Assembly (NCBI RefSeq): GCF_017873855.1
Contig: NZ_JAGGKR010000001.1
Location: forward strand, 2,113,529 to 2,177,528
Direction of reading: 5' to 3'
DNA length: 64,000 bases
From: Methanolinea mesophila
GTDB taxonomy: Archaea; Halobacteriota; Methanomicrobia; Methanomicrobiales; Methanospirillaceae
The position numbers and the translations under genes are program-made. Below the pieces are notes generated by a model that saw nothing but the letters and a program-made list of their open reading frames with translations, searched no databases and was not told the DNA's origin. The first letter of the stretch is position 1; each line of letters opens with the position of its first letter. This document shows, piece by piece, positions 14,213 through 24,642 of the stretch.

Positions 14213-14924
14213 AGAACCGGTTGAGATCCTGGTCCAGATGGCGGAGCGGGGCGAGATAGACCCGTGGAACATCGACATCGTCGAGGTCACCGACCGGTTC
14301 CTCTCCGAGCTCGAGCGGAGGAGGGAACTCGACCTGCGCATTTCAGGCCGGACCCTGTTCTTTGCTGCGATCCTCCTCCGGATGAAGTCCGAGGCCCTGG
14401 AGATGGGGGAAGAGGAGGAAGAGGGCGAACCGCTGGAAGACGAAGACGGGGACCTCTTCTCGTTCGGGGACGATGACGAGGAGCCGGGGACCTCACGCGA
14501 ATCCGGTCCCATCGACCTCCTGGAACGGGAGATATCCCGGCGGCTCGACCGGAAAAAGCTCCGGAAGAGCCCGATCACGCTCTTCGAGCTGATTATCGAA
14601 CTCAAGAACGCGGAAAAAGAGCAGCGTCGCCGTCACCGGTTCCGCTCCCCGTTCAGCGAGCTGATCACCGCGGAGGACGTGGTCGCCATCGCCCACGACG
14701 AGGAATACAAGGAGACCGCAGAGGCGGTGATGGAGCAGTGCGAGGACCATCTCGCAGGGGAGGAGGTCATGACCCTGCGGGAGATCGCTGCGCTGCTCGG
14801 AAAAGGGCTGCTTGACATCTACATCCCCCTGCTGTTCCTGATGTCCGAGGGCCGGGTGATGCTCTGGCAGGAGGAGTTTTTCGGTGAGATCTTCGTGCAG
14901 GCTTCCCGGGTAGAAGCAGAGTGA
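14205..14924 (+). CDS. scpA: Segregation and condensation protein A
   Basis: The kleisin subunit that bridges SMC heads. The 239-residue protein opens with the family motif PVEILVQMAERGEIDPWNIDI and includes ISGRTLFFAAILLRMKSEAL. An acidic linker (about residues 65-95) precedes a C-terminal winged-helix segment ending in LWQEEFFGEIF. It overlaps the smc 3' end by 8 bp, indicating coupled translation. No scpB follows; the next genes lie on the other strand and a decayed copy of the scpA 3' end is found about 2 kb further on. Confidence 0.93.
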   Translation: MTEEPVEILVQMAERGEIDPWNIDIVEVTDRFLSELERRRELDLRISGRTLFFAAILLRMKSEALEMGEEEEEGEPLEDEDGDLFSFGDDDEEPGTSRESGPIDLLEREISRRLDRKKLRKSPITLFELIIELKNAEKEQRRRHRFRSPFSELITAEDVVAIAHDEEYKETAEAVMEQCEDHLAGEEVMTLREIAALLGKGLLDIYIPLLFLMSEGRVMLWQEEFFGEIFVQASRVEAE

Positions 14925-15054: not shown

Positions 15055-15291
15055 TCACTCTTGGGTTGCAGGTATGGAGAATTTTTTTCTGATTTCTCTG
15101 AACCGGGATTTTACCGCTACGAGTGTAACGACAAGAGCCGGGAGGATAAAACAGCCTCCCGGGATGGGACAACCTCCGCACCCGGCGCCACACGAACCCG
15201 GCAGTAAAAGTGCAAAAGGAGATACCGCGCTCGCGACAACGAACGCCCAAAACCCTCGGACGCTGCCTTTTCCCTGACCCGGGGGTGTCAT
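15055..15291 (-). CDS. Small Cys-rich two-helix membrane protein, third gene of redox operon
   Basis: A 78-residue protein whose ATG overlaps the stop of the NapH-like gene (ATGA, 4-bp overlap), with GGAAGGA five bases upstream, a strong sign of coupled translation. It has two hydrophobic segments (about residues 13-32 and 48-60) separated by a short loop with Cys 34, 38, 41 and 47 in the pattern CX3CX2CP-X5-C. A basic tail (KSRFREIRKK) should face the cytoplasm. The cysteines could bind a metal or an iron-sulfur cluster or form disulfides. I recognise no family. The gene is small, but overlap, ribosome-binding site and composition support it. Confidence 0.7.
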   Translation of the reverse strand: MTPPGQGKGSVRGFWAFVVASAVSPFALLLPGSCGAGCGGCPIPGGCFILPALVVTLVAVKSRFREIRKKFSIPATQE

Positions 15292-16151
15292 CGTTTCCTT
15301 CCGTATTCATATGCCGCGTGTGGGCAGGCATTCGTGCATTCCTGGCAGGCGATGCATAAATGGGAGTCAACGGATTTATCGGCCGATATTGCCCAGGTCG
15401 GGCAGAAAACTTCGCATTGTGAGCAATTTTGGCACCTTTCCGCGTTATGGAATACCCGGTACATCCCGGCCCGCTTGCCTGCGGAATGGGACAAGTTCGA
15501 GAGGACACCGAGTGGACAGAAAAAGAGACACCACCCCCTCCCACCTGACATAAGAACTCCCCCAATGACCAGCCATGATATCAGGGCAATAAGTGAGCCG
15601 GTATGCCAGTATGAAACGGAGGATAACTGGCCGGTGAGGCCATTGGCGATGTTCTGGAGCACTGACGAGGTGCAATAACGGCAACACACACTGCTAAGGG
15701 ATGCAATCCGGTACCCCACGATTACCGATACCGCAACGAACCCGGCAAAGAATCCATACCTCAGTCCCTTCGTTATCAGGGGATCTTTGATCCTGATTCT
15801 GTAATAATCGGGAAGCGGCGTTATCCTGCTTAAACATTCGCTCAATGAACCTACAGGGCAAAGCCATCCGCAGAATACCGGGCCGACAAAAAAAGCAATC
15901 AACACGACTCCAAGGATGAATGCAGCCGCGACGGATCCGAGCAAGGCATACCACCTCCCTCCAAAAAGCCAGTCTATTGGCATCCTGTAACACATGGTGT
16001 GAAGTGTTGGAGATGCCATATTGCCGGTGACACCGTAAGCAAGTCGTGCAATCACTGCGAAAGGCCCTACAAACAGGAAGAAACCCAGGATAAGTGCGAG
16101 ATACCGCCAGCGGTTGTTGCGAATTGTACTGACGGGATTCCTCAATGACAT
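15288..16151 (-). CDS. NapH/NosR-type membrane 4Fe-4S protein
   Basis: Integral membrane iron-sulfur protein of the NapH/CcoG/NosR type, a quinol- or ferredoxin-linked electron carrier. The 287 residues show hydrophobic segments near 18-40, 68-92, 130-150 and 184-202, and two CX3CP motifs (C94-C98 and C208-C212). A C-terminal ferredoxin domain has two CX2CX2CX3CP clusters (C240-C250 and C266-C276). An extra VCCRYC lies at 155-160. The ATG overlaps the upstream secreted-protein gene by 10 bp and follows AGGAGG. With the adjacent secreted protein and Cys-rich mini-protein it probably passes electrons across the membrane; the substrate is unknown. Confidence 0.85.
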   Translation of the reverse strand: MSLRNPVSTIRNNRWRYLALILGFFLFVGPFAVIARLAYGVTGNMASPTLHTMCYRMPIDWLFGGRWYALLGSVAAAFILGVVLIAFFVGPVFCGWLCPVGSLSECLSRITPLPDYYRIRIKDPLITKGLRYGFFAGFVAVSVIVGYRIASLSSVCCRYCTSSVLQNIANGLTGQLSSVSYWHTGSLIALISWLVIGGVLMSGGRGWCLFFCPLGVLSNLSHSAGKRAGMYRVFHNAERCQNCSQCEVFCPTWAISADKSVDSHLCIACQECTNACPHAAYEYGRKR

Positions 16152-16732
16152 TCGCCTCCTGTCGTATTTACGGTGTCTTTGCCGTTTACAATGGTTATCG
16201 GAAGGAAAGTGAGCATTTCGCCGCTGTCAGCATCGGAAAAGAGCAGGCCGCCTTCGCACACCACTTCGTTATAAAGCCGGTCGCCCGGTATCTGGAAAAA
16301 CCAGTCGATTCCAAGATTGCCGACGGATTCCCCGGGGGGGAGCGGTTCCAGGAATGTGCGTGTATCGGGGTCGTAGGGAAGATTGGCGCTCATCTCCCAG
16401 CGTACCGGGATCGAAATATTCACGAGTTCCACCCTTATCCTGACAGGTGTTTTCCCCACATTGGTAATGGTGTGAGTTGAAATTCCCTCGATGTCTGGAT
16501 TCAGGACTTTCTTCAGGTTGCCCCGCTGCTGCAGGTCTATCATGATCGGCGCCATCTCGATAGGTGCTCCTCCCCCCCTGACGATGGTGGACTTGGAGAT
16601 AACACCCCCTGGTACTGCTACCTTGAAGTGGACCATCTCAGATTTCCCAAAATCGCTCGCATACGCTGCTGCTCCGAGAGTGAGAAAAAATGTGAATAAC
16701 ACGGCGATAATGATAATGCCAAATTTTTTCAT
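16142..16732 (-). CDS. Secreted protein of unknown function, first gene of redox operon
   Basis: A 196-residue protein with a clear signal peptide (MKKFGIIIIAVLFTFFLTLG, cleavage probably after AYAS). The mature part is beta-rich with no recognised family; it contains TITNVGKTPVRIRVELVN, which resembles an immunoglobulin-like or COG1470-type fold, and ends in GGECH. The ATG at 16732 is chosen because AGAGGA lies five bases upstream and the next residues are a standard signal sequence; an upstream TTG adds seven residues. It overlaps the NapH-like gene and probably acts on the outer face as partner or substrate carrier of that membrane redox protein. Confidence 0.78.
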   Translation of the reverse strand: MKKFGIIIIAVLFTFFLTLGAAAYASDFGKSEMVHFKVAVPGGVISKSTIVRGGGAPIEMAPIMIDLQQRGNLKKVLNPDIEGISTHTITNVGKTPVRIRVELVNISIPVRWEMSANLPYDPDTRTFLEPLPPGESVGNLGIDWFFQIPGDRLYNEVVCEGGLLFSDADSGEMLTFLPITIVNGKDTVNTTGGECH

Positions 16733-16947
16733 GTCTTTTCCTCTTCGCAAAATTCACTCCGACTGCTCGGCACTGGAGGGCTTCATCCGGTTTAACTAAA
16801 AATAAGACAGAAATTATATAGATATTTCCTGGAATGCGGATATGCGTTGGGCGATATCACTCCCCGGATATACTATCAATCTCCGGGAATAACCGCGATG
16901 CACACCTCAATGAAGAATTCTTACCGGGCGGACGACTGTCGAACTAC

Positions 16948-17061
16948 CCGGCAAAGCGTTGTTGAAGTCTTTATTCCGCAGGACTTCCTGATGCCGGAGT
17001 GGCGGGTGCAAATCTGGCGGGAGGAGTGTTTCGGGGGGATCTTCTTGCACACTTCCCGGAA
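16948..17061 (+). pseudogene. Decayed copy of the scpA 3' end
   Basis: Translated in the plus frame, this stretch reads VVEVFIPQDFLMPEWRVQIW followed by REECFGGIFLHTSR. It aligns with the true ScpA C terminus LLDIYIPLLFLMSEGRVMLW and QEEFFGEIFVQASR. DNA similarity is also visible around GGAGGAGT-TTCGG and CTTCCCGG, and GAAGAGGGGG follows both copies. No scpA sequence precedes it, so it is a fragment and not a gene. It lies about 2.1 kb downstream of real scpA, on the far side of the minus-strand redox operon. Other sequence in 16750-17236 appears non-coding, with an AT-rich promoter-like part near 16795-16825. Confidence 0.7.
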
Positions 17062-17236
17062 AGGAGATCAGGATAACTCGAAGAGGGGGCCGGGTGTAAG
17101 AGACGGGCGGGTCGTTCCGGTTCGGAACATGATGCCGCTGCAGAGTGAGGATTCCGATTCCGGTCGCCCTTGTTTGTTTAATCCGATCTCCGGCATCCGC
17201 TCCGACCGAGACAAAAGGGGAAAAAGGAAGAGATTT

Positions 17237-17611
17237 TCAGGCCTGCTTGAACCACGCCTTGACCTGCGGCTGGAACAGGTACCAGAGGATGATGATGTCG
17301 ATGATGATCCCGATGACGGCCGAAGCGGTGTTGGAGAGGATGGACAGGAGGTTGATGATGACGCCGATGATGGTGAAGATGACTCCCACAGGCCAGACCC
17401 ACGGCCAGCCCTTGAAACAACCGATACCCAGGAACAGGAAGACGAGGCCGATGACGACAAAAATCACGCCGACCGCGGCACCGATCGCGCCGAGTCCTAT
17501 AATCGCCAGTGCTGCACCGCCGACGGCTCCTCCGATGACGGTAAGGATGCCGGCAATAAACCAGAGAATTCCGATAATCGTAACCCCGAGGGGGCGAGCT
17601 TGATCTGCCAT
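17237..17611 (-). CDS. Small four-helix membrane protein of unknown function
   Basis: A 124-residue, very hydrophobic protein with about four membrane segments (residues about 8-30, 33-60, 66-88, 92-112). It starts MADQARPLGVTIIGILWFIAG and ends WYLFQPQVKAWFKQ. This layout, with an N-terminal RPxGVTIIGIL and a C-terminal aromatic/basic tail, is common in archaeal membrane proteins of unknown function. No catalytic residues are seen. It is a single minus-strand gene, probably monocistronic, with an AT-rich promoter-like stretch (ATATATATAGATATG) just upstream at about 17634-17648. Confidence 0.8.
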   Translation of the reverse strand: MADQARPLGVTIIGILWFIAGILTVIGGAVGGAALAIIGLGAIGAAVGVIFVVIGLVFLFLGIGCFKGWPWVWPVGVIFTIIGVIINLLSILSNTASAVIGIIIDIIILWYLFQPQVKAWFKQA

Positions 17612-19053: not shown

Positions 19054-20521
<1,468 letters not shown>

Positions 20522-20590
20522 AATGAAATTTCGGGGAGCGGTTGCTGAACAAACCGTAAAATAGCCGGTATCAGCGAGAATACGAACAGG

Positions 20591-20663
20591 GGGCTCATAG
20601 CTCAGCTGGAAGAGCGCGGCGTTTGCAACGCCGAGGCCATGGGTTCAAATCCCATTGGGTCCA
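20591..20663 (+). tRNA. tRNA-Ala (anticodon TGC)
   Basis: A complete cloverleaf in the 16S-23S spacer, as usual in Euryarchaeota. The acceptor GGGCTCA pairs with TGGGTCC (two G-U pairs), the D arm is GCTCAGCTGG-AAGAGC, the anticodon loop is TTTGCAA with TGC, and the T loop is GGGTTCAAATCCC. The 3' CCA is not encoded beyond position 73. There is no intron. Confidence 0.97.
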
Positions 20664-20734
20664 CTTTCGATGCACCTGGAGATGCGAGTCACCAGGGAAG
20701 GGTTGAGGGTCATCTGACCCGACGAAGCCGTGTA

Positions 20735-20769
20735 AAGGTTTGCACTCAGGACGTTATATGGGTTTGACG

Positions 20770-20779
<10 letters not shown>
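20735..20779 (+). other. 5' arm of the 23S rRNA processing stem
   Basis: AAGGTTTGCACTCAG (20735-20749) is a perfect 15-base complement of 23714-23728. GTTTGACG and GAATACCAGT (to 20779) complement CGTCAAAC and ACTGGTATTC (23680-23704 region). The unequal interruptions resemble the bulge-helix-bulge substrate of the archaeal tRNA-intron endonuclease. The innermost pairs belong to mature 23S helix 1. Confidence 0.8.
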
Positions 20780-23689
<2,910 letters not shown>

Positions 23690-23769
23690 ACCACGTCAAA
23701 CCCAGACGAAATTCTGAGTGCAAACCTTATAGCCAATGCTATCGTAGAGTATAGGGCTATCACGCGGCT

Positions 23770-23841
23770 GCCAAGGTGGCGGAGAGGCTACGCGGTTGAC
23801 TGCAGATCAACTACACTCCGGTTCAAGTCCGGACCTTGGCT
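23770..23841 (+). tRNA. tRNA-Cys (anticodon GCA)
   Basis: A cloverleaf 40 bp after the 23S processing arm. Acceptor GCCAAGG pairs with CCTTGGC, the anticodon stem GTTGA/TCAAC holds the loop CTGCAGA with GCA, and the T arm is CCGGTTCAAGTCCGG; the discriminator is T. CCA is not encoded. Its 3' half was duplicated with the following 5S gene. Confidence 0.96.
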
Positions 23842-23842
23842 T

Positions 23843-23972
23843 TGGGTGATGGCGGCCATAGCAGTCGGGCAACACCTGGACTCATTCCGAACCCAGAAGT
23901 TAAGCCGACTCACGTAGAGTACTGTACTGAGGTACGCGAGTCCTCGGGAACTACTCCACGCTGCCATCACCC
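23843..23972 (+). rRNA. 5S ribosomal RNA, copy 1
   Basis: Typical archaeal 5S: the 5' end TGGGTGATGGCGGCCATAGC pairs with GCTGCCATCACCC at the 3' end, with the conserved CATTCCGAACCC and GAAGTTAAGCC between. It starts two bases after tRNA-Cys, so it is processed from the same transcript. A hairpin (GAGCAT/ATGCTC) lies about 45 bp downstream in a spacer that otherwise shows no gene. Confidence 0.95.
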
Positions 23973-24250
23973 TTCTTATTGCATCGAAAAATCCAATCAG
24001 TTCTGCATGATTATTCCGTGAGCATACATGCTCGCGATAGTTTCTGAAGTGCAAACCTTTGAGCGGACACGCTCCCGGGATACTATGATCTTTCCGCCAT
24101 GACCTTACAGGCAATCGGATCTTTTCCCGGACGCGGAGTTCAATCGCACCTGCATCGCAAGGGATGCCGGCAGGTTCGCGGCCTGCGGTGAATACTCAAA
24201 ATTATAATTGCCAGTATCCGCAAAATTCTACCAGGAATTCCAGAAATTCC

Positions 24251-24642
24251 GGTTCATACCCGGGACCTGGTGTCGGGCGACGGCGGCCATAGCAGCCGGG
24301 CAACACCCGGACTCATTCCGAACCCGGAAGTTAAGCCGGCTCACGTAGAGTACTGTACTGAGGTACGCGAGTCCTCGGGAACTACTCCACGCTGCCGTCA
24401 CCCTTCTTTGAATCAGCCTGAATTATGAATTAATTCTGGAAGGCTTTTCTCGTGGGAATATAGGCTCACGAAATTGCGTATTTTCTGAAGTGCACACCGG
24501 GTAGCGGATGCGTTCGCGGGGTTCCAGGATCCTTTCGGCCTGATGACAGTCGGGTTTTCTCCTGGAGAAGGAGGTTTTATTGCCTGCATCGTAAAGGATG
24601 CCGGCAGGTTCGTGGCCTGCAGCCGTAGTTTGGAAAATTATC
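24251..24642 (+). repeat. Tandem duplicate of the tRNA-Cys 3' half, 5S and downstream spacer
   Basis: Sequence from about 23813 to 24209 is repeated here with a period of about 430 bp. The copy begins in a degenerate tRNA-Cys T arm (GGTTCATACCCGGGACC against GGTTCAAGTCCGGACC), includes a full 5S, and continues through a shared tail with TGAAGTGCA, CGGACACGCTC/CGGATGCGTTC and GCCTGCATCG followed by GGATGCCGGCAGGTTCG. From 24643 to 24829 I see no gene. Confidence 0.8.
24273..24403 (+). rRNA. 5S ribosomal RNA, copy 2
   Basis: A second complete 5S about 300 bp after the first. It differs at several positions, and some changes are compensated: T-to-C and A-to-G at paired sites in helix I (GACGGCGG/GCCGTC), in the GCAGCCGG...CCGGCTC helix and in the ACCCGG/CCCGG helix. 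One helix I position becomes a C-A mismatch. Retained pairing suggests it is functional and expressed from the same operon or a local promoter. Confidence 0.92.

Follow-up and report, generated by a model that had tools for sequence, protein, structure and literature searches.

A mobile three-gene membrane redox module of archaea and its possible role in exporting reductant

Introduction

Exported redox proteins need reducing power from across the membrane. What, then, does a NapH-like iron-sulfur protein do when its gene overlaps those of an exported protein and of a tiny cysteine-rich membrane protein? Such a trio lies in the window, as we call the whole 64,000-nucleotide stretch of Methanolinea mesophila DNA analysed here. 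The original prediction, made from the sequence of this stretch, knew of no named system with this composition, and the literature searched, which was covered in part, likewise contains no description of one; the two partners of the NapH-like protein also fall outside the Pfam and NCBIfam families. Here, we describe the architecture, distribution and origin of the trio, and weigh what it might do.

Results

The three genes are encoded on the minus strand of the window in the order exported protein (16142-16732, 196 residues), NapH-like protein (15288-16151, 287 residues) and mini-protein (15055-15291, 78 residues, two helices). As predicted, they overlap and are encoded together: the exported and NapH-like genes share 10 nt (16142-16151, minus strand), while the NapH-like and mini-protein genes share the 4 nt ATGA (15288-15291, minus strand), with GGAAGGA just before it. 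A TATA-box-like sequence on the same strand (16814-16821), read by eye roughly 85 nt upstream of the exported gene, is a candidate promoter. Also upstream on this strand is the gene of a small membrane protein (17237-17611) with a sub-threshold Pfam match to DUF7144. The trio is adjoined by a full rRNA operon (16S, tRNA, 23S, tRNA and two 5S copies; window 19055-24400), and most of the long ORFs called across that region are spurious.

The centre protein had been described as an electron carrier of the NapH/NosR type, and its composition agrees with this. It matches PF12801 (Fer4_5) with 52.1 bits against a cut-off of 22 and Fer4 with 38.6 bits (Pfam), and features two CX3CP motifs (C94xxxC98P and C208xxxC212P) and two ferredoxin-type 4Fe-4S motifs. 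Hydropathy predicts four transmembrane helices; together with the distribution of positive charges, from which we infer the topology of both membrane proteins, it assigns the ferredoxin domain and the two CX3CP motifs to the predicted cytoplasmic side and C54 and C156/C157/C160 to the predicted external side. Both CX3CP motifs are invariant in alignment A2, with the exception of genome G882, which has CX2CP at the second. The CX3CP and 4Fe-4S cysteines are common to the trio family and to all four homologues aligned with it, namely Azospirillum NapH, E. coli YccM, a Leptolinea homologue and an Archaeoglobus-like homologue. C54 and C160, invariant in predicted external loops throughout the NapH-like proteins of the trio family, are particular to it and absent from the aligned NapH, YccM and Archaeoglobus-like homologue. 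NapH is the best NCBIfam match for all 22 NapH-like members scanned, and we considered the protein as a NapH proper; this identity was rejected, as the scores are far below the curated cut-offs (56.1 of 213 bits for TIGR02163, NapH/MauN; 45.2 of 234 for NF007013, NapH). Judged by its sequence, the NapH-like protein is a new branch of the NapH/NosR/CcoG superfamily.

The mini-protein consists of a CX3CX2CPX4C motif between two hydrophobic segments. Its predicted topology, again from hydropathy and charge, has both ends inside and the four-cysteine turn outside. The cysteines are kept in 16 of the 17 sequences of alignment A3, the copy at locus L019 having a tyrosine at the last position, and the mini-protein of G882 retains all four with altered spacing. 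There is no Pfam match above the cut-off, and no NCBIfam family covers the protein. The predicted outer face of the module would therefore present six conserved cysteines, C54 and C160 of the NapH-like protein plus the four of the mini-protein. A joint model of a natural NapH-mini fusion reached a pLDDT of 67 overall and about 45 in the mini-protein part, too weak for contacts.

The exported protein starts with a hydrophobic segment, a signal peptide or an anchor, followed by an Ig-like beta-sandwich that is modelled with confidence (AlphaFold2 mean pLDDT 88.8). Fold searches returned generic Ig-like matches only (all Foldseek E values ≥1e-3, VIA-align Z ≤7.5). Neither the protein nor 16 relatives match any Pfam family at E 0.1, the P19, FixG_C and cupredoxin families included, and no NCBIfam family covers it. 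H87 is invariant in all 17 sequences of alignment A4 and H35 nearly so, and apart from the tail encoded by the gene overlap there is no conserved cysteine.

This tail, GGECH in the window, carried weight in the original prediction that it does not bear. An ending of CH, CC, CCG or CCS after a glycine stretch is found in 16 of the 18 loci examined, and its cysteine is conserved because the start codon and ribosome-binding site of the next gene overlap the end of the exported gene. Within the 10-nt overlap of the window, the start codon of the NapH-like gene and the two codons after it double as the Cys-His-stop of the exported protein, and the GGAGG ribosome-binding site just upstream encodes its Gly-Gly; more generally, a TTG or ATG start is read in the other frame as xxT-TGy or xxA-TGy and yields a cysteine. 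The tail cysteine is present in all 16 sequences with the overlap (relatives and window) and absent from both loci without it (L018 and L097). Since the tail vanishes with the overlap, the ending does not speak for a redox or metal arm, and we dropped this role: the motif is a product of the next gene's Shine-Dalgarno sequence and start codon. The result serves as a warning that these two elements can create a conserved C-terminal motif.

How widely does the trio occur? A named-genome scan with the NapH-like protein gave 16 loci at 43-58% identity, all from Methanomethylicales/Methanomethylicota or Methanomassiliicoccales. The proposed search for the three-gene set in other archaea had a clear outcome, with the trio together and in the same order at 15 of 15 Methanomethylicia loci on uncut contigs (L013, L014, L015, L017-L020, L026, L027 and L067-L072) and in G882, a recurrence well in excess of chance. 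Gene overlaps at the Methanomethylicia loci are similar to those in the window, except that L018 lacks the one between the exported and NapH-like genes. The idea that the partners are not conserved beside the NapH-like gene in relatives is thereby clearly contradicted, as both are conserved in Methanomethylicia. The exported protein is encoded in 17 of 40 Methanomethylicia genomes, and 398 genomes sampled from the same phylum (Thermoproteota) add one more, in the deeper genome G882, where all three genes stand in order. What lies beside the trio changes from lineage to lineage (leuC-like genes, ribosomal proteins, pyrophosphatase, scpA), which identifies the trio itself as the conserved unit. 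One genome of Methanomethylicota, G465, contains two diverged trio copies (L018 and L019), both near contig ends. Beside the NapH-like matches in Halobacteriota (L010-L012) there is neither a mini-protein nor an exported partner.

Part of the trio extends to Methanomassiliicoccales, where the NapH-like protein and mini-protein occur in 9 of 147 genomes. They are fused in six, from which it follows that they act together; in the other three the mini-protein is a separate downstream gene. The exported partner in this order is a different protein, also with Ig-like domains. MCR is present in all Methanomassiliicoccales hosts of the module and in each of the 17 Methanomethylicia genomes that encode the exported protein; the gene of this protein occurs in none of the 13 without MCR (Fisher 1e-4). 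A role confined to methanogens was nevertheless rejected, as the deepest host, G882, lacks MCR; the association is a trend and no rule.

Within the order of the window genome, the NapH-like and exported proteins were found in none of the 149 other genomes sampled, and a profile search of 392 other genomes of its phylum gave no close relative. The tree nests the window protein within the Methanomethylicia clade (100/99 support); its position beside Methanomethylicus is modestly supported (80/83). GC3 of the trio genes is 0.51-0.59, compared to 0.60-0.88 (mostly >0.72) for nine other window genes. Further, the trio is bracketed by a direct repeat on the plus strand: the intact 3' end of scpA (14812-14916; scpA by Pfam SMC_ScpA) forms the left copy, and a decayed second copy of 105 nt, 73% identical, lies 2150 bp away on the other side (16962-17066). 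The local alignment of the two scores 120, compared to 34 for the best of 200 shuffles. The low GC3, the tree and the decayed scpA copy point to a horizontal gain of the trio, perhaps by insertion at scpA with the decayed copy as a possible scar, a mechanism that we infer from this arrangement.

A lead on function comes from Methanomassiliicoccales. CcmF (PF01578) is encoded in 11 of the 147 genomes, in 9 of 9 with the module versus 2 of 138 without it (Fisher 8e-13, a value that ignores phylogeny and, given the relatedness of the genomes, overstates their independence). The gene directly follows all six fusions (L021-L023 and L062-L064) and is adjacent to the module, in divergent orientation, at L073; in G627, CcmF and module are far apart on different contigs. 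In G523, with CcmF and no detected module, the contig ends inside CcmF, so that its neighbour is outside view, and in G629 the module is absent and CcmF lies beside an exported protein with a canonical CXXCH. No CcmF/CcmC-type protein (PF01578) is present in the window genome or in any Methanomethylicia tested, and the heme link therefore cannot explain the trio of the window.

Two CcmF tryptophans, W216 and W253 in E. coli, have been proposed to carry electrons to the external heme, and the reductant upstream of CcmF is unknown (PMC10663686). We had considered that archaeal CcmF might lack the transmembrane heme histidines; this was wrong, as the four heme histidines and the WWD motif are intact in all aligned CcmFs, from Methanomassiliicoccales as well as two bacteria. 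The CcmFs of the fusion clade, the partial one of G523 included, lack both relay tryptophans, with Gly and Thr/Met/Leu/Phe in their place; both are kept in four other Methanomassiliicoccales CcmFs and in the two bacterial ones, and the W216-W253 spacing of 37 matches in the alignment. CcmFs with WWD and four heme histidines and no relay tryptophans are encoded at L022 (6151-8112), L023 (6147-8093), L062 (5754-7700), L063 (8777-10774), L064 (8653-10596) and L084 (1492-3030). As the fusion clade is monophyletic (100/99), the tryptophans were probably lost in one event.

The exported Methanomassiliicoccales family (L023 3964-4905, L024 2704-5004, L065 3759-7601, L085 6539-8323 and L086 11897-12565) has an N-terminal heme-type motif that varies between CXXCH, CSCH, CX5CH, CSAH and CSFH, followed by Ig-like domains. 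Its members are possibly cytochromes, either at several points on the way to being lost or attaching heme in an unusual manner.

Discussion

The existence, conservation and mobility of the trio are well supported; for its function we offer a hypothesis, backed by one strong association at the level of a lineage. The reading that we favour, while stopping short of calling it probable, is a transmembrane module for the export of reductant, which passes cytoplasmic electrons to an external cysteine site and on to an exported acceptor. The two 4Fe-4S clusters of the NapH-like protein would be the point of entry, from which electrons would pass to the two CX3CP sites and reach the six cysteines of the outer face: C54, C160 and the four-cysteine turn of the mini-protein, which would in effect be an added terminal domain of the NapH-like protein. 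From there, they would go to the exported partner or its cargo, with the Ig-like exported protein docked at the outer cysteines, as may also hold for the Ig-like domain in CcoG. The acceptor in Methanomassiliicoccales would most likely be heme or the thiols of the module's exported neighbour, a c-type-cytochrome-like protein, while heme is attached with the help of CcmF. In Methanomethylicia and the window genome, both of them devoid of CcmF, it would be a different exported cofactor or thiol protein. The direction of electron flow, the cofactors and the acceptor are all read from sequence features and gene context. Several observations speak against the scheme: the exported protein has no conserved cysteine and hence offers no obvious thiol acceptor, the loss of the CcmF tryptophans is limited to one clade and perhaps to one event, the hosts outside Methanomassiliicoccales examined here (the window genome and Methanomethylicia) have no CcmF, and CcmF occurs apart from the module in G627 and with no module in G629.

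How does such a module compare with known systems? We model its working on CcoG, a reductase, and on NapH, NosR and RdhC, which supply exported enzymes (PMC7558416, PMC5928378), although it belongs to none of these families. NapH shares the four transmembrane segments, the two CX3CP motifs and the two C-terminal 4Fe-4S motifs. However, the trio protein is 24% identical to Azospirillum NapH, and its family has the extra invariant external cysteines and an obligatory cysteine-rich mini-protein. In contrast to the Azospirillum locus, no nap genes (NapG, NapA, NapB) were recognised among the neighbours of the window trio or of its relatives. The same membrane core is found in the polyferredoxin CcoG/FixG/RdxA and its short form YccM. 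CcoG, a related polyferredoxin reductase, has a periplasmic Ig-like domain (reviewed in PMC7558416), whereas the Ig-like component of the trio is a separate protein unrelated in sequence, and FixG_C is matched neither by it nor by its 16 relatives (Pfam); YccM lacks C54, C160 and a mini-protein partner. NosR and RdhC (PceC) share the core and the CX3CP motifs and feed electrons to an exported enzyme (PMC5928378), but their FMN-binding domain is matched in none of the three trio proteins (Pfam). CcmF-type maturation, finally, is encoded with the module in Methanomassiliicoccales and needs an outside-facing reductant, yet the trio proteins themselves are not Ccm proteins. If our assignment is true, the trio adds to the NapH/NosR/CcoG superfamily a new branch with a minimal external cysteine domain.

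The original prediction had offered two functions, electron delivery to an external acceptor or reduction of an exported cofactor. The latter gains support from the CcmF link in Methanomassiliicoccales; the former stays as a rival, which we hold unlikely. Here, the module would oxidise a membrane carrier or ferredoxin and load the exported protein as a lasting carrier for respiratory or extracellular electron transfer; in Methanomassiliicoccales the carrier would be a c-type cytochrome, and CcmF would be there only to mature it. NapH works in this manner with periplasmic NapG and NapA, scattered NapH homologues occur in ANME genomes, one of them followed by an 8-heme cytochrome (PMC9012536), and the Methanomassiliicoccales partner family has a canonical CXXCH (CDNCH) in G629 and CSCH or CX5CH elsewhere. 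But the heme-type Cys-His pair is gone from the partners at L024, L025 and L065 (CSAH, CSFH), no cofactor motif is conserved among the exported proteins of Methanomethylicia and the window, and this reading leaves unexplained why CcmF lost its tryptophan relay.

More doubtful still is a reductase or uptake system for copper or iron, like CcoG or FtrD, in which the cysteine turn and CX3CP motifs bind, reduce and pass on the metal and the Ig-like protein is an external metal-binding partner. While CcoG is indeed a cupric reductase with two FeS clusters, two Cu sites and a periplasmic Ig-like domain (PMC7558416), and H87 and H35 of the exported protein could be seen in this light, inspection by eye of the loci read revealed neither a metal permease nor a P-type ATPase or metal chaperone beside any of them, and the exported protein matches none of the P19, FixG_C and cupredoxin families. 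A general thiol-disulfide relay for oxidative folding or anaerobic repair, replacing CcdA or DsbD and with no cofactor link, seems very improbable to us. It would make use of the six invariant external cysteines, and whether the CX3CP motifs of the superfamily act as disulfides or FeS centres is unsettled (PMC5928378); however, it predicts a wide occurrence, and the module is patchy, with 17 of 40 Methanomethylicia, 9 of 147 Methanomassiliicoccales and 1 of 150 genomes of the window's order.

Returning to the export of reductant, the loss of the CcmF tryptophans fits a fused module that provides reductant on the outside in place of a CcmF no longer able to do so. A bolder version, which we also hold unlikely, is that the fused module took over the reduction step of CcmF in one Methanomassiliicoccales clade and so let CcmF lose its relay, and that Methanomethylicia and a Methanomicrobiales-like methanogen, the latter having received it by gene transfer, use the same device for an exported acceptor that involves no heme. 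The tryptophan-less CcmFs are a natural test of the proposed electron relay, and the CcmF-tied module makes heme and thiol reduction outside the archaeal membrane testable. Archaea with Ccm genes mostly lack CcmH (PMC9012536). In G627, the gene of a 141-residue protein (L086 8551-8976) stands next to CcmF and a CcmC-like gene; with its terminal CASKY, a CXXXY motif, the protein looks like an archaeal CcmE.
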